From NCBI GenBank assembly GCA_020047885.1, contig JAIFNF010000300.1:1-7394 (forward strand): 7,394 nucleotides of DNA. Reading direction: 5' to 3'. The notes beneath the pieces were generated by a model that saw only the letters and a list, made by a program, of their open reading frames with translations, had not been told where the DNA came from and made no database searches. Shown in pieces: positions 1-7,158 of this stretch. Made by a program: the position numbers and the translations under genes. The DNA is from Gammaproteobacteria bacterium (lineage in GTDB: Bacteria; Pseudomonadota; Gammaproteobacteria; Competibacterales; Competibacteraceae). Position 1 is the stretch's first letter, and each line of letters opens with the position of its first letter.

Positions 1-110
1 TTAGATACAGATTAGCGCCTGGCGCTCCCCCTCTCCATTTATGGGGAGGGGGTTGGGGGGAGGGGTCTGAACGCTTACCAATCAGGTAGGGTTAGATACA
101 GATTAGTGCC
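1..110. repeat. 19-bp near-perfect direct repeat bracketing a short insert
   Basis: Bases 1-19 (ttagatacagattagcgcc) and 92-110 (ttagatacagattagtgcc) match at 18 of 19 positions, 91 bp apart. The right copy contains the last codons and stop of the methyltransferase gene (minus strand, residues ALICI then TAA). The left copy repeats that gene end downstream of the stop but in a different frame. The insert between the copies holds a hairpin and G-runs. The arrangement fits either a local tandem duplication or insertion of a small palindromic element with duplication of the target. The left copy begins exactly at the window edge, so its true length is unknown. Confidence 0.7.
14..65. repeat. Abutting inverted repeats with G-run (REP-like palindromic element)
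   Basis: Bases 14-26 form a perfect 6-bp inverted repeat with one central base (agcgcc t ggcgct). It directly abuts a second inverted repeat, arms 27-38 (ccccctctccat) and 41-52 (atggggaggggg), a 12-bp stem with one C/T mismatch (a G.U pair in plus-strand RNA) and a 2-base centre. The right arm runs on into further G tracts to position 65. Intergenic palindromes of C-run/G-run type are widespread in proteobacterial genomes and are usually REP or MITE-like. There is no T-run after the stem on the minus strand, so it is not a classic intrinsic terminator, although it could still stall or protect the 3' end of the operon transcript. Confidence 0.6.
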
Positions 111-2677
111 AGAAACTTCTCACGGGCGGTGACTTGTGGTACGAGCCGACCCTTGGACATCTTCACCATACACACGATCTGCCGGTGGTGATTCGGCCCG
201 AAGCTGACATGCACCGGCAGGTCGCAACCGTAGAAGTACAGTCGATCAAAGGGCGTGTTCGCCACGATCCATTGCGCCACTTCCAGCATATTCTCATCCT
301 CGATCAGGAAGTCCACCGCCGCCCCCAGCCGGTCACAAACGAGCCGACCTTGGCGATTCACTTCATGCGCTGCGTGCTGATCGCGCTTCGGGTCGATGCG
401 TCCGGGAATCTGTCGGGCCAGCAGTGGCGAGCAGAAGCCGTAGGTCAGGCGGATCATCCCGAAGTAGTCGATCACCGGGTCGAGAATATTCAGCGCCAGA
501 TCCAGCAGGGCGGTGTAGCTGTCCGGCTGTTCCGGGCGATTGGCCAGTCCGGTTCGCACTTGAGTTTCGCCGCATTCGATCAGTTGCCGGAAGGTCAGAT
601 ACGCGCCGCAGGGGGCGTCCAGATCCGGGAGAGTCGACGCCCGGTTGAGCGTGAAGCCGTCCACCTGCCAGCGATACCGGGTCAGCGTCTCCTGAAATTT
701 TGCGGGTGGCGGGCCATAACCGGTGAGATCGAACAGTCCCAGGGCGTCGAGGGCGGCTTCAAAGGCGAGTTGCTCCGGGTAGTTGGGAAATTCTTCGTTG
801 ATATAGCGGGATTTGTGGTACAGGAAGGCCGGTTCGTAGCGGTCGCCATAGGCGAAATAGTCGATATTCTGCTGCCGAAGCTTGATTTTGACCCGTTCCA
901 GCAGGCGCGGCAGGGGCGAGTGCTCAAAATCGTCAAAGCGCAACAGGCTGACTTTCCCCGACGCGATGTGGATTTTGATCAGATCGGCGTGGCGGTAGTC
1001 GCCGTACAGCACCGCCGCGCAGCCGACGTAGATGCGCAGCAGTGGCGGGAGCTGTTCGACCAGGCGGGTGTGCAGTTGCAGCGACTTCCCCGGTTCCAGC
1101 CAGCCCAGGCCGTGTTCCGCTGCGGTCTGGCAGGCTTGTTCAATGGCAGCGATATTCGCGGTTTCAAACAGCCGCGTCCGGGCGGCGTTCTGCGCGGCAG
1201 CGTAATCGCCAAAGAACGTCTTGATGTCGCGTTGCAGTCCCGGCTCCAGATGCGCATAGGGTTTGCGCTGTTCAAATTGCATCAGGGCAAAGTAGACCTC
1301 CAAGTCGGCGCTGCGGCTCGCCCGACTCCGCGCCAGATCATCGGGATCGTTGCGGGCTTCGATGAACCGAAAGGCCTTTTTCAGCGATCCGAACCCGGCG
1401 TTCAGCGTTTCCAGGTCATCCACTTCGGCAGGTTCAGGCATCCGCCCCAGCATCAGACTCAGCGCCCAAAGCCGGTCAAGAACTTCCTGATAGTCGCCAT
1501 ATTTTTCCGCAGCCTGGTCGCGTCTCAGCGTCGCCGGACGTTCGGCGACTGATGTCGTCGGACGGCGTAGTAAAGTCCGGCGACTGCGGTAGCGTTCCAT
1601 GAGAAACCGCTGTTCGGCGTCTTGATCCCGGAAAATGTAGAGCACGCCCGGCGCGACCGGAATGGCGACTTCGTCCAGCGCCGCCTCGATGAACGCCTTG
1701 ATCTCAGCCTGGGTGTAGTACTTCTGGAAGGTGTCGCGCTGGGTGCGGACGCCATCGCGGAAGGGCTGGCCACGCGGGTCGTGCGGATTGGCCAGCATGA
1801 CCGCGACGACCAGCAACCGTTCCGCCAGCGACCAGGCGCGAATCAGCGCCTCCAGCCGCTCGTCGCGATCTTCGATAACGTTGATGACGAAGCCGAGATT
1901 GACCAGATCGGCGGCATGAATCGCTTGATCCGGGGCGTAATACGGATCCCAGCCGTCGGCGTTTAACCCATTATCCCGCAGGCCGCGCACGTCGTCGCCG
2001 CGCCCGCAACCGTAGTCGAACAGTGAGAAGCGCCCGTCGAGAAAGCCGTAACGAGCCAGGCTTTGCACCGGGGCGGAGAAGTTGGAGCGCGCCAGGGCGG
2101 TGCGGTGCCGGGCGGTTTCCCAACCCGTCGCGGGCAGCGCCAGGTTCGCATCAGTGGTTTCCTCATCCCCACTGTCCACATTCCCCAGCGGAACCAGGCT
2201 ATGCCCGGCGATGTGATAGCCTTTTTCCCGCACCAGCGCCAGCCACTGCCGTTGATAACCAATGCGGGTCGGCTGATCGAACAGGCCAATGGTCTCCGCT
2301 GCTTCAGTGAGCGCGGCATATTCGGCGCGGTGCGGATGGTCGTCCGGCAGTAACAGTTCCTTGCGGTGCAGGATGGGCGGGTTGAGGGAGTCGGCGTAGG
2401 TGCGGTAACTGACGGTCTGCTGGTCGAGATTGACCAGCCAGCTTTCCCGTAGCGCCGGGAACGGTTCGTCGAAGAAATCCGGGTAGTTCAGCAGGGCGAC
2501 GCAGGGGCCGTCAACGTCAATGCGCACCAGGTTATAGCGTTCAGCGCGGGCGATGTCGGCCAGGCGCTCGGCGGCGTTCCACCGTTCGACCCAAACAGGG
2601 TTGATCGCCAACCCGGCGTCGATGTGAAAGTAGCTGCGTTGCCCCACCATTTTGCCGGGTGCCGAGTGCGCTTTCAT
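92..2677 (-). CDS. Phosphorothioation-associated-type SAM methyltransferase with internal duplication and C-terminal M15_3-like domain
   Basis: 861 residues, cytoplasmic, with no signal peptide or membrane segment. The start is the ATG whose TG overlaps the upstream TGA, preceded by purine-rich GGGGGATTGAGAGG; Met10 is a possible alternative. Domain order by eye: repeat copy 1 (about 13-163); class I methyltransferase core (about 188-352), preceded by HRTALARSNFSAPV, with SAM motif I DYGCGRGDD (221-229), acidic loop GWDP (242-245) and NLGFVINVIED (260-270); helical linker (about 370-530); repeat copy 2 (about 530-680); C-terminal domain (about 693-828) resembling peptidase M15_3, with candidate zinc ligands H768, D789 (GAAVD) and H823 (VHVS). 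The core and linker fit my memory of the family named 'DNA phosphorothioation-associated putative methyltransferase'. There is no DPPY/NPPY motif of N6/N4-amino methyltransferases and no cytosine-methyltransferase PC motif, so the substrate is unknown. It is second in an operon behind a BrxC/PglY-like ATPase. The family call is fairly sure; peptidase activity is inference. Confidence 0.85.
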   Translation of the reverse strand: MKAHSAPGKMVGQRSYFHIDAGLAINPVWVERWNAAERLADIARAERYNLVRIDVDGPCVALLNYPDFFDEPFPALRESWLVNLDQQTVSYRTYADSLNPPILHRKELLLPDDHPHRAEYAALTEAAETIGLFDQPTRIGYQRQWLALVREKGYHIAGHSLVPLGNVDSGDEETTDANLALPATGWETARHRTALARSNFSAPVQSLARYGFLDGRFSLFDYGCGRGDDVRGLRDNGLNADGWDPYYAPDQAIHAADLVNLGFVINVIEDRDERLEALIRAWSLAERLLVVAVMLANPHDPRGQPFRDGVRTQRDTFQKYYTQAEIKAFIEAALDEVAIPVAPGVLYIFRDQDAEQRFLMERYRSRRTLLRRPTTSVAERPATLRRDQAAEKYGDYQEVLDRLWALSLMLGRMPEPAEVDDLETLNAGFGSLKKAFRFIEARNDPDDLARSRASRSADLEVYFALMQFEQRKPYAHLEPGLQRDIKTFFGDYAAAQNAARTRLFETANIAAIEQACQTAAEHGLGWLEPGKSLQLHTRLVEQLPPLLRIYVGCAAVLYGDYRHADLIKIHIASGKVSLLRFDDFEHSPLPRLLERVKIKLRQQNIDYFAYGDRYEPAFLYHKSRYINEEFPNYPEQLAFEAALDALGLFDLTGYGPPPAKFQETLTRYRWQVDGFTLNRASTLPDLDAPCGAYLTFRQLIECGETQVRTGLANRPEQPDSYTALLDLALNILDPVIDYFGMIRLTYGFCSPLLARQIPGRIDPKRDQHAAHEVNRQGRLVCDRLGAAVDFLIEDENMLEVAQWIVANTPFDRLYFYGCDLPVHVSFGPNHHRQIVCMVKMSKGRLVPQVTAREKFLALICI

Positions 2678-5600
2678 GGCCTCTCAATCCCCCATCGCTC
2701 CATCAGTAGCGCCAGAAGCTGACGCTGGTGGGCAGCCGGTAATTGTTCAATACGGCTGATCATTTCGTCCAGGCTCATCTGATCCAAGTGCGCGGTTAAT
2801 TGCGTGGTGATCGGTTGCAGGATCACCCGTTCCTCGGGACGCAAGGCATCCGGTGGATGGCCTAGCGCTTTCAACAGGTGCTGAGTGTGCTCCTTGTCCA
2901 GCACACGGACGTCGGTGATCGTCAGGAAACCCTGTAACCAGGTTCCTACTCGCGCTCGCCGCGCCTGTTCTTCCAGGCGGGAGCGTTGCTGCCGCACGGT
3001 CTCCAGTACATGTTCAACCTGCATCCGGTCGGCGCTGGACAGGTAACCCGGCGCGGCCTGCAATTCCTGTTCAAATTCGTGGCACTGTGCGGAATTTAGC
3101 GTGTTGAGGGGCTTTAACACGCGCGGTTGCAACCAATCTGTTGAACGTTGTTGCGCCGCGTGGAGGCGTTCATCGGCGAGCGCCTGGAAGATAGTGGCCA
3201 AGTCCCAGGTGGGTTCAATGTCTTTTTCAGTCAGCAGGGTGTTCAGTTCCGGCAGTTGCCGTTCAATGTACCCCTGGAGCAGTTCCCGCAACCGCTCGAC
3301 GCTGACTTCACCGGTTTCCCAGGCGGAAACTGCCGCGAGGAGATGTTCCAGTTGCAGAACCATTTCGCTGATTTCGCCCTGATCCCGGGTGTCAACGAAA
3401 ATTTCACGCAGGCGCCGGGTCTTGATCAGCGCCTCCTGCACCGCCGCCTGGCAGGTCAATGGCCAGTCATACAGTGTGCTTAGGGTGTCGCGCTGCTGTT
3501 TAAGGCGCTCATTCAAGCGTTGCTGGCGCTGTTGGATGGCCTTGACGCGGGCGTTGATTTCGTCGGCACTGAGCGCGCTGGCCGTGGCTCGAACCGCTTC
3601 AATCAGTTCATCGCCCCGGGCGATGTCATCCCGCAACTCCCGCACCGGCGTCGATTCCGAGGGATCGGGTTGCCGGGGGTAATCGTCGCTCTCGTCCAGC
3701 GTCAGCTTGAACTGTTGCCGTTTCTCGACTTGCAGAATGGCCTGTTGCATCTGCTGTTCAAGCGTGCGCGCCTCGGCAGGCAGTTGGAGGAGATGCAAGC
3801 TTTGCACCGCGTTTTCCAGCCGCCGGCGGAAATCGCCGACCTGACCGACATTCTGGCAACTTTGCCGCAGAATCCAGTTCGTAGCACGCGGGGTGACGAA
3901 TTGATGGACTGCCGCCAGCAGGGTTTCCGCATCGTGCCGATAGCGCTCCGGCCAAACCGCGGTATCCTCCAATTCCCGCAGTCGCTCGGTGAGGCGGAAC
4001 GCAAGTTTTAGCAAACGCCCGACATCATCCTGACGTTCCGCATTTTCAATACTCCGTTCAATATCATCCAGTTGTGCGCGAGCTTCGTGCAGTTTCGCCG
4101 AGGCTTCACCGGTTTGGTCACATAGATACCGGTAGAGTCCGGCCTGGGCTTCCGGCAGTGGATCGACCTTGGTCAAGCGCCGGGCTTCATCCCCGAGGGT
4201 GACTTTGCCCTGATAACTTTTCTCGGCATCCCAGCGACTGAGCAGATCCCGCCAACGCTGGGCGCTGTCTTCAGTCAGGAAGCGCACGGTGCTGCTTTCG
4301 AGAACGCCTTGGCTCAGAAAATGGCTGCGGGTACTCGGAAACGCCGCGTCGGCCCAATCACTGGCGGCGATCATTTCGCCATCCTGTTCAATCCGGCGGG
4401 GCGGGTTAGCGACGCCCAGCAACAGGCCGAGCAGCACTTGGGCGGAAGCGGCGTTCATGCCGTAGGGCGGAGCGATCAGCGCCTGATGCGAAGTCCACAA
4501 GGTGCGTTGGGGATCCTCCCGATGGGCGTGCTGGAGCCATTGGTAAACCGCCTTAACTTTGGGTTCCTGCGGTTCGGTCAACTGACCGGAGGGCAGCAGC
4601 GCCCGCCAACCCTGCGCCAGTAGCGTATTTACCCGGTTCTGCAACTGCTTCTTCTGCGTCTGCACCCACGCGCCATCGACCTGCCGGGCGATCAGGCTGC
4701 GCGTCAACTGGGCGCAATCGGCCGGCCCCCCGCCCGCCGTTGTGGCGAACCCGTCAAAGGGGAAGGGCAGGGCTGCCGGATAGACCTGCGCAAAAATCGC
4801 CTCGCCGACCGTTTTCAACCGCCCCTCCGGCGCGGTCGGGAACCCGGCGACCCAGTACAGACGCTCCTTGATCAGCGCCGCCACGCCCTCCTTGAACGCC
4901 TGACGACTGCGGTCTATTTCCTCGGGAATGAAGCGGCGAAAGCGCTCGTGATCTTCCGCCGCCAGGGGTTCTTCAAACACATACAGGCGGCTCAGATGCT
5001 CGGCCAAGGTTCCCTGTCGATCCGCCAGACCGACAATCCAGACCGGGGCAGTCGCATATCCGGTGCGCTGGAGTTGTTCATCGAGACGGGCGCGAATCCG
5101 GGTCTCGATCTGCGCCAGATCATCGTCAGCGTGCAGGTACAGATAAATTAACTGGCCACGGAGGTCTTTGGGCGAAGCGGCTTGTTGCCAGGTCTGAAAC
5201 GCCCGCTGAATCTCCTTTTCAACCGTTGCCACCTGCGCCAGTTGCGCGGCAAACCCCCACTCGCGGGTGGCGATCTCGCGGCTTTGATAAAAATCGGTAT
5301 CGAGGTGGCCAAGTTCGCCATCCTTCGCGCCGCGCCGCAGGAACAGGTCGCGCACGGCTTCGGCGGTGAATCCGGTCTGTTTGCGGCGCAGCCATTGTTG
5401 GAACTGCCCGCGCGTAGTGGCGTCGGCGATCAGTTCATACTGCCCCAAATCCGCGTTCCACTCCACCGCGCCCAGTTCCTGGCTAAGCGCCTGGAGGGCT
5501 TTGTCCAGGGTGGCGCTATCGAGCGCGGCGGCTTCGCCCAGCAATGCATTCATGGCCGGTTGCGACTGCTTGCCGACCCGCATCTTTTCCAGAATGGCGA

Positions 5601-7158
5601 CGCCGGCCAGAGCCAGCCGTTGTGGGTCGTTCAGATGCCCCTGAAACTTCTCCAGCAATCCTTGCAGGGTTTCGGCGACCGTCGCACCGGTTTCGCGTTC
5701 TGCGGCGATCATTTCCGGCAACAGACTGCGCAGCGCCAGTTCCGCCGCGCTGACCTGGCGCAGGCGACCGGCAGTAACCGCCTCTTCGTCGCTGATCCGC
5801 TCAATCACGTCCTTGATGAAGGTCAGCGCCGAGCGCGATTGCACGATGTCGCGCTGGCGGGTGAGAAACCAGGTTGCCAGGGGATGCAGCGGCCAACAGC
5901 CCTGGACGATGACCCGAGCAAAGCGTTCGGGATCGTTCCAGACCGGGAAGCGGTGGAAGCCGGGCAGGCTGTCCTGCATCCGCTGCCAGCTCAACTGACC
6001 CTGGCGTTCGGCGTTGGCGGTGCGCCAGACTTCGGCCAGTTGCGGTTCATCCTTGCCGATGATGTGGGCGAAAATAGTTTCCAGATTGGTGGACAGATAC
6101 CATTTTTCCGCCGCGTCGAACCGGGTGATATAGCGCTGCAGTTGCCGGAGATCGGCGCTGCTGAAGCGCTTGAGATAGGCTTTGAGTTCGTACTGGATGA
6201 AGCCGATCAGCCGCACTTTCTGGCTATTATCCTGGACGCCCTGAAAAATTTGCTGCAAGGCGGCGTCCCCGGCCAGATGGGGCTTTTCGGCGGCGTATTC
6301 CAGATAGCGCCCGAACTCGTCAAACAGGATTACCACGCTGGAAAACGCACCCTGGGCACCGCAATAGACCTCGCACAGCGTGTTGATCAATTCTTGCGCC
6401 GACTCCTGGCCGACGACCGGAATCGGTGAACCGTTAGCTTCGTCATACAGCGCATCGACTTCGGTATAGGTCGCCTCATCCCGGTTTTGCAGGCGTGCGC
6501 CAATCTCCGCTGCGGTCAGACCGGGCAGGCGCTGGGCGAAGCGTTCGGCGCGAAAGGCAAAGTTGCGGTCGACGAACTGTTCAGCCGTTTGAAAACGCGG
6601 CGACAGGTCACGGATGGCTCCGGCATCGACGCCGTAGCGCTGCAACTGGGCAAACACGGTCTGCACCAGGGCGTTGCCGAGGTGAAAGCCCGCCATGCCA
6701 TCCAGCGCCAGCACCAGCACCGGGCGGGTCAAGTGCGCGAGGGCGTCCTGAACCGCTTGACCGATGGTGGGATCCGCTTGGGCAATATGGGCGACAATCT
6801 CCTGAGCGGTCGCGCCGTGTGGATCAGCCAATAACGGGGCGCAGGTCACGGCGAAATGGGATTTGCCCCCGCCATAACCGGCCACGGCCAGCGCATAGGG
6901 ATTGCGTTCCCGACCGTGCAGGCCATCGAGAATGGATTGCAGCAGATCGCGCACCAGACTGGCGGTGTCCTTGAGCCGATAGCCGCCTTCAATGCCTTCT
7001 TTTTCGGCATCGCTGGCCCCGTGATAGCGCGGGCCGTGAAAGACAAAAGCCCGGGCGGCTTGTTGCGCCTGCGCCTCACGTTCCTGCACCCAGCGCAATT
7101 GCACCGCGCCTTCAAAAAACCGTTCCTCATGGAAACGAACCAGGTCGCCGATTTTCAT
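2674..7158 (-). CDS. Giant BrxC/PglY-like P-loop ATPase, probable DNA modification/phage-defence component
   Basis: 1494 residues, soluble. Start ATG at 7158-7156 has AAGGA 9 nt upstream. Walker A is AGYGGGKS (93-100, K99), matching [AG]x4GK[ST]. Walker B is VVILFDE (275-281, D280/E281). LIGFIQ (317-322) looks like a sensor-1 strand, and R346 in YITRFDAAEKW is a candidate arginine finger. WPLHPLATWFL (422-432) followed by RSALTFIKDVIE is the helical lid pattern seen in BrxC/PglY-type and related defence ATPases. PPYGM followed by a leucine-rich helix (897-916) resembles a segment of the C-terminal half of those proteins. Charged, heptad-like helices at about 1018-1070 and 1180-1230 may be coiled coil. 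Its size is larger than the roughly 1200 residues usual for BrxC or PglY. It overlaps the methyltransferase gene by 4 nt and likely works with it, perhaps as the DNA-loaded motor or sensor. DndH-like or a separate ATPase family are alternatives; the AAA-like ATPase call itself is secure. Confidence 0.8.
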   Translation of the reverse strand: MKIGDLVRFHEERFFEGAVQLRWVQEREAQAQQAARAFVFHGPRYHGASDAEKEGIEGGYRLKDTASLVRDLLQSILDGLHGRERNPYALAVAGYGGGKSHFAVTCAPLLADPHGATAQEIVAHIAQADPTIGQAVQDALAHLTRPVLVLALDGMAGFHLGNALVQTVFAQLQRYGVDAGAIRDLSPRFQTAEQFVDRNFAFRAERFAQRLPGLTAAEIGARLQNRDEATYTEVDALYDEANGSPIPVVGQESAQELINTLCEVYCGAQGAFSSVVILFDEFGRYLEYAAEKPHLAGDAALQQIFQGVQDNSQKVRLIGFIQYELKAYLKRFSSADLRQLQRYITRFDAAEKWYLSTNLETIFAHIIGKDEPQLAEVWRTANAERQGQLSWQRMQDSLPGFHRFPVWNDPERFARVIVQGCWPLHPLATWFLTRQRDIVQSRSALTFIKDVIERISDEEAVTAGRLRQVSAAELALRSLLPEMIAAERETGATVAETLQGLLEKFQGHLNDPQRLALAGVAILEKMRVGKQSQPAMNALLGEAAALDSATLDKALQALSQELGAVEWNADLGQYELIADATTRGQFQQWLRRKQTGFTAEAVRDLFLRRGAKDGELGHLDTDFYQSREIATREWGFAAQLAQVATVEKEIQRAFQTWQQAASPKDLRGQLIYLYLHADDDLAQIETRIRARLDEQLQRTGYATAPVWIVGLADRQGTLAEHLSRLYVFEEPLAAEDHERFRRFIPEEIDRSRQAFKEGVAALIKERLYWVAGFPTAPEGRLKTVGEAIFAQVYPAALPFPFDGFATTAGGGPADCAQLTRSLIARQVDGAWVQTQKKQLQNRVNTLLAQGWRALLPSGQLTEPQEPKVKAVYQWLQHAHREDPQRTLWTSHQALIAPPYGMNAASAQVLLGLLLGVANPPRRIEQDGEMIAASDWADAAFPSTRSHFLSQGVLESSTVRFLTEDSAQRWRDLLSRWDAEKSYQGKVTLGDEARRLTKVDPLPEAQAGLYRYLCDQTGEASAKLHEARAQLDDIERSIENAERQDDVGRLLKLAFRLTERLRELEDTAVWPERYRHDAETLLAAVHQFVTPRATNWILRQSCQNVGQVGDFRRRLENAVQSLHLLQLPAEARTLEQQMQQAILQVEKRQQFKLTLDESDDYPRQPDPSESTPVRELRDDIARGDELIEAVRATASALSADEINARVKAIQQRQQRLNERLKQQRDTLSTLYDWPLTCQAAVQEALIKTRRLREIFVDTRDQGEISEMVLQLEHLLAAVSAWETGEVSVERLRELLQGYIERQLPELNTLLTEKDIEPTWDLATIFQALADERLHAAQQRSTDWLQPRVLKPLNTLNSAQCHEFEQELQAAPGYLSSADRMQVEHVLETVRQQRSRLEEQARRARVGTWLQGFLTITDVRVLDKEHTQHLLKALGHPPDALRPEERVILQPITTQLTAHLDQMSLDEMISRIEQLPAAHQRQLLALLMERWGIERP

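Follow-up and report, generated by a model that had tools for sequence, protein, structure and literature searches.

An M15/Hedgehog-fold domain with a conserved candidate zinc triad, fused to or encoded near a phosphorothioation-associated putative methyltransferase

The window analysed here, a 7,394-nt stretch of a Competibacteraceae gammaproteobacterium (GCA_020047885.1, contig JAIFNF010000300.1), carries on its minus strand a gene for an SspC-like ATPase of 1494 aa (2674..7158) and, with its start overlapped by 4 nt, an 861-aa open reading frame (92–2677) that encodes a putative methyltransferase ending in a further domain, hereafter the tail. The upstream ATPase is weakly matched by the PADLOC SspC model (E 1.5e-16, best stretch residues 67–189). 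Scanned for tRNAs and with Rfam (gathering thresholds), the window gave no match, and its 7.4 kb encode neither a PAPS-reductase-like protein nor a cysteine desulfurase, both of which related loci (L074, L137 and L146 among them) carry.

The 861-aa protein is a strong member of NCBIfam TIGR04096 (DNA phosphorothioation-associated putative methyltransferase), which it matches at 605 bits (cut-off 150; E 8e-182), with the model match ending at residue 678. The dnd_rel_methyl core (residues 189–678; 644..2113, minus strand) comprises a class I SAM methyltransferase domain and the region following it. The N-terminal region (~residues 1–175; 2153..2677, minus strand) repeats at ~residues 540–690 before the tail, giving two TIGR04096 stretches, and this duplication is also found in relatives (blastp of residues 1–188 against the second region, E 1e-12 in L071); the second copy lies at window positions ~608–1060. 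In the whole-protein model the fold aligner was informative on residues ~193–351 and on the tail, and residues 193–351 are predicted to adopt a methyltransferase fold, for which the nearest folds among those listed are tRNA and small-molecule methyltransferases, including Trm9, METTL6 and glycine N-methyltransferase. DNA base methyltransferases carry a (D/N/S)PP(Y/F) or PC motif; the conserved stretch read in this methyltransferase is NLGFVINVIE. Pfam gave Methyltransf_23 as the sole match to the window protein, even at E 10. The initial annotation had called this partner a DNA-modification protein; given those nearest folds, the label rests on gene neighbourhood.

The tail (residues 685–861; 95..625, minus strand) falls past the end of the TIGR04096 match and was assigned to the M15/Hedgehog fold by predicted structure and profile comparison. 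An AF2 model of residues 686–861 reached a pLDDT of 94.2 and has the Hedgehog/DD-peptidase (M15) fold: its top match in the PDB, and thus its best solved fold, is the Streptomyces albus G zinc DD-carboxypeptidase (1LBU, M15A), and its top match in BFVD is a phage M15A protein (TMq 0.72). A tblastn search with the tail returned 19 phage records at E 0.01 (best 7e-8), several of them annotated peptidase M15 or endolysin, and hhalign of 13 tails against five phage proteins gave a probability of 99.5% (E 4e-22), placing H768, D789 and H823 over the phage H, D and H. The phage M15/endolysins (Pelagibacter phage HTVC027P, Caulobacter phage GB2A, Stenotrophomonas phage Salva), whose triad can be aligned with that of the tail, are 29–33% identical to it over 65–86% of its length. 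The phage profile in turn reached 1LBU at E 8e-6 over residues 85–163, a match that stops before H197, with R138, H154 and D161 in register by counting; searches of PDB sequences with tail profiles yielded chance rows only, and the relationship between tail and 1LBU came via the phage profile and the fold. Family databases gave little at this sequence level. PF08291 (Peptidase_M15_3) left the window protein unmatched at E 10 and the tail alone unmatched at E 1, and matched 15 of 73 relatives weakly (best E 0.019); PHROGs returned nothing for the full protein and a single row at E 0.33 for the piece, and PADLOC matched neither the window protein nor the two standalone tails scanned. The initial annotation had proposed the fold from an M15_3-like segment whose coordinates and residues proved right on re-reading the sequence. 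Public records already name some relatives ‘peptidase M15’ or ‘Peptidase M15A’, and to that extent the fold assignment has a precedent.

Three residues of the tail, put forward in the initial annotation as candidate zinc ligands, occupy the places of the M15 triad: H768 in DQH (374..376), which lies over the His of phage SQH and whose codon was checked, D789 in GAAVDF (311..313), over the Asp of phage GxAxD, and H823 in VHVS (209..211), over the His of phage W-x-H-x-S, all on the minus strand. We followed their conservation in 240 relatives (the best 120 of 1507 and the best 120 of 818 proteins, P0001 being the window’s own protein). Each is kept in at least 238 of these 240 best listed relatives (H768 in 238, D789 in 240, H823 in 240; the exceptions are P0121 and P0024), so that alignment and conservation identify them as candidate M15-type H, D, H ligands. 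Other positions are nearly as constant among the same best 240 (D766 239, E772 238, N774 218, C781 238, R783 239, D811 240, Y814 240). C690 and C702 are kept in 229/230 and 234/234 of the best listed relatives, and neither is fixed in distant members. Down to 34% identity, 13 diverse tails all share the triad, D766, E772, N774, C781, D811 and Y816. Comparison of the window with L001 gave Ka/Ks values of 0.116 for the tail, 0.137 for the methyltransferase part and 0.131 for the whole protein. To judge by these sequences, the near-invariance of the triad and of the insert residues between its first two members favours a working metal site.

Around the triad the pocket has changed. Two departures had been noticed at the outset, namely a longer spacing between the first His and the Asp and the replacement of the YRS arginine by C749; both are real, but more exist, including an Asp in place of the SxH Ser and an insert bearing E772, C781 and R783. 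To place these changes, 13 tails were aligned with 37 other M15-type sequences, five from phages and 32 from genomes. The genomic sequences were drawn from PF08291 or tail-profile matches and then passed through a phage-profile filter (of 45 loci entered, 12 fell below the E-value filter, one was a duplicate and 32 were kept); a smaller alignment with a length filter kept 7 of 31 matched genomic sequences. S[GA][FY]R in the phage M15/endolysins is replaced in the tail by YGFC, their S-x-H by DQH, their H-x6-D by a spacing of 20 residues, and their L/C-I-x-E stretch by LYFYG. All 37 other M15-type rows carry the Arg of the [FY]R turn and 0/13 tails do (11 Cys, 1 Ala, 1 Thr), a count to be read knowing that the selecting phage profile itself carries this Arg and favours Arg-bearing rows. 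C749 (431..433, minus strand) aligns at this substrate-binding position, R138 in 1LBU, and the tail accordingly lacks the M15 substrate-binding Arg; among the best 240 listed relatives, a single one has Arg here. Two residues before the first His, Ser stands in 29/37 other M15-type rows and Asp in 13/13 tails. Between ligands 1 and 2, the stretch 769–784 (326..373, minus strand) contains the family-specific insert (E772, N774, C781, R783), which is missing from the 12 closest peptidases; the spacing of 20 residues is 14 more than in the phage enzymes and departs from H-x6-D. The Glu of those 12 peptidases is Tyr in the tails, as it is in 17/37 other M15-type rows (which, from their length and motif, we take to be YcbK-type), a further 8/37 having Phe. 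Loss of this Glu was considered as proof of inactivity and dropped, because those 17 rows share the Tyr. At the last-His position 8/37 other M15-type rows have Asn. Three residues before H823, where 1LBU has D194, the tail has no fixed acid (acidic in at most 1/240 best listed relatives); D819, four before H823, is Asp in 175/240.

As far as the sequences go, the loss of the Arg and Ser together with the gain of a new Asp and Arg would favour a changed substrate, and the early suggestion of a non-peptidoglycan role holds as far as it can be tested. These changes also bear on whether the tail might be a cell-wall or precursor peptidase that halts the infected cell by cutting D-Ala-D-Ala or peptidoglycan precursors in its cytoplasm. 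VanX, of the same family, acts in the cytoplasm, and the closest phage sequence relatives found for the tail are peptidase M15/endolysin genes; nevertheless, the R138 equivalent is replaced in 13/13 tails and 239/240 best listed relatives, the loop joining the first two ligands is longer, and the gene also sits inside modification operons, which together make such an effector very improbable.

The same pocket could instead belong to a pseudo-enzyme, an M15-fold module stabilised by zinc and serving to bind DNA, a signal or a partner protein without catalysis, a case already made for Hedgehog signalling domains. Tails without the Arg, without the SxH Ser (Asp in its place throughout) and with no fixed acid at the H-3 position would also fit a dead enzyme, and Hedgehog offers a precedent, the accessible text of PMC11266112, which also tabulates the roles of 1LBU residues including R138, describing this fold as able to act as a ligand through its zinc site. 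Hedgehog domains differ from the tail in being extracellular animal ligands and in mostly keeping H-x6-D, and their E177 equivalent is described as taking a proton from the catalytic water (both in the accessible text of PMC6027127). Against a non-catalytic module stand the near-invariance of the triad and nearby polar residues over deep divergence and the presence of Tyr at the Glu place in other M15-type rows, by which the loss of that Glu is no proof; we regard this alternative as possible but rather doubtful.

A cousin family of ~200-aa M15-like proteins was seen in 8/398 genomes (L107, L109, L110, L111, L113, L115, L118, L119). It keeps the [FYL]R Arg and the first His, which is followed by a longer loop (HIWDxR...), and shows an Asn aligned at the last-His place; the two of eight members scanned had no Pfam match. 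In L148 a cousin gene adjoins ORFs that by eye resemble type I restriction HsdS and HsdM. A replacement of the ligand Asp by Cys in this family was not borne out, as an Asp can be aligned in 37/37 other M15-type rows.

To describe the genetic linkage of the tail, we surveyed 398 Pseudomonadota genomes, counting as strong any tail with a profile E below 1e-60. TIGR04096 scored above cut-off in 11 genomes, and the tail profile matched 21, seven strongly and 14 at E 3.5e-9 or weaker, the latter being ordinary or cousin M15-like proteins. All seven strong tails are in TIGR04096 genomes and none is in the 387 genomes without TIGR04096 (Fisher p 1e-12, related genomes not being independent); 6/10 is the fairer figure for the linkage, because G001 was chosen as centre for having the gene. 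Five of the 11 carry the tail fused (G001, G041, G097, G253, G387) and two carry it as a separate gene, abutting the methyltransferase in G280 and one gene away in G263, whereas four (G171, G227, G239, G350) gave no strong tail at the profile’s sensitivity, so the methyltransferase can do without it. Unlike the window protein, 6/11 TIGR04096 members in the sample thus lack a fused tail. The fusion to a defence-type methyltransferase claimed initially therefore stands for the window protein, but the domain also occurs as a gene of its own in dnd/ssp clusters.

The separate-gene tails lie in compact arrangements. In L081 (G263), dndB, dndC, dndD and dndE are followed by the tail gene, which overlaps dndE by 4 nt, and then by an HNH gene, and the methyltransferase lies on the opposite strand from the dndB-C-D-E-tail run; in L082 (G280), the end of the tail gene is the start of a 627-aa methyltransferase, with dndB, C and D downstream; and in L146 (IMG/VR), sspB, sspC, sspD, tail and methyltransferase form one run, with sspA divergent. 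On cyanobacterial plasmids, the tail accompanies a methyltransferase, DUF4007 and PAPS reductase in Pseudanabaena (L094), a methyltransferase and DUF4007 in Leptolyngbya (L089), and a cysteine desulfurase, a gene named dndB and PAPS reductase in Geminocystis (L090), where no methyltransferase was found within 24 kb. Altogether, 10 standalone loci were read (L081, L082, L088–L094, L146), 6 with dnd/ssp genes and 5 with a methyltransferase; L088, L091, L092 and L093 showed neither in the stretch read. From the plasmid search, 10 of 11 records were read (H11, with 26% of the query covered, was left out). Short listed rows on short contigs, some of which (P0121, P0131) start inside the pre-tail region, were not counted as standalone, and extra G430 fragments, which end at contig ends, were taken as assembly breaks. 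Two in-frame joins, of a BrxL N-terminus to the methyltransferase C-half plus tail (P0062, on 4 contigs) and of a DUF4007 N-terminus to the tail (P0214, on 6), look like deletion chimeras and were set aside as evidence. The HNH-type gene belongs to a family (two members scanned, L081 and L090) found at L081:7975-9120, L082:8270-9417 (split over two overlapping ORFs), L073:4219-5388 and L090:22247-23374. A second small class I methyltransferase gene was also seen (L072:11625-12209, L073:5712-6422, L087:11110-11754, L082:11871-12518), the first three being one BLAST group and that of L082 separate.

Besides the window, 14 fused loci were read (L071–L076, L080, L084–L087, L136, L137, L145), 11 of them with dnd- or ssp-like genes nearby. 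SspA–D types lie near the fused gene in L072–L075 and L080; L137 has dndB, C and D with a DndA/SspA-type desulfurase; L136 has DndH- and SspB-like genes, and L071 a DndH-like gene, via a second contig (L144). L085, L086 and L145 have no dnd/ssp gene in the stretch read. In L076, L084 and L087, the restriction genes SspF, SspG or SspH stand beside the fused gene; the idea that the domain is confined to the modification half was dropped for this reason. Genes for modification and for restriction both neighbour the fused tail, and its surroundings do not single out the modification step. The 1494-aa ATPase occurs in 3/398 genomes (in G041 barely, E 5e-4), all three with a fused tail. In L131, L136 and L144 it is preceded by a DndH-like HerA gene and then a ~300-aa gene, which resembles SspB weakly in L131 and L136 and has no match in L144; L131 also carries SspF- and SspG-like genes, and in G253 (L131/L080) the ATPase does not adjoin the methyltransferase.

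Such restriction genes beside the fused gene, the DndH-like and SspB-like genes before the window’s ATPase in related loci, and the peptidase-type fold itself are what might be expected of a defence-system protease cleaving a phage or partner protein on infection. However, the tail is equally at home by modification genes (dndBCDE, sspABCD), it has lost the substrate-binding Arg, and no target is known; we consider a protease of this kind improbable.

In a tree of 35 sequences, one branch (100/99) separates all 23 tails from the other sequences and another (91/95) sets apart the 14 fused tails; L082 and m15_L114 form long branches of unsure placement. The tree fits what was probably one fusion of two genes already in the same clusters.

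From the predicted fold, conserved triad, changed pocket and genetic linkage computed here, we infer metal binding, catalysis, substrate and joint action, and tentatively prefer, at not quite an even chance, that the tail is a retargeted metal-dependent hydrolase, or an enzyme derived from one, in phosphorothioation defence. Under this proposal, the tail would be an M15/Hedgehog-fold domain, sequence kin of phage-type M15 peptidases, that kept its zinc triad while its pocket was rebuilt for a non-peptidoglycan substrate. It would belong to the dnd and ssp phosphorothioation-based defence clusters (SspA, SspB, SspC, SspD, SspF–H, DndB–E and DndH-like genes, of Ssp/Dnd systems and Type-4 BREX, neighbour it in related loci). 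Being fused in some lineages and adjacent in others, tail and TIGR04096 methyltransferase probably act together in this defence, perhaps in one step or complex, with the tail acting on the system’s own product or on a partner.

A more specific proposal, which we consider unlikely, is that the tail is an unrecognised phosphorothioation enzyme, whose zinc site and near-invariant loop residues C781 and R783, lying between the first two ligands, would with the methyltransferase add, remove or check a further group on sulfur-marked DNA or an intermediate. Phosphorothioation, which modifies the DNA backbone, has accessory genes of unexplained role. Our literature search, in a collection with few subscription papers, found nothing linking an M15 domain to phosphorothioation, and the terms M15 and hedgehog are absent from the accessible main text of the Ssp/Dnd papers PMC10853773 and PMC12839542. 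Set against those accessible texts, a conserved candidate zinc-site domain in dndBCDE and sspABCD runs by a methyltransferase points to an undescribed step or complex. If the phosphorothioation-enzyme proposal were true, an M15 peptidase fold would be part of a nucleic-acid modification pathway. Under the wider proposal, too, the tail would add, besides Hedgehog, another departure of the DD-peptidase fold from cell-wall work.
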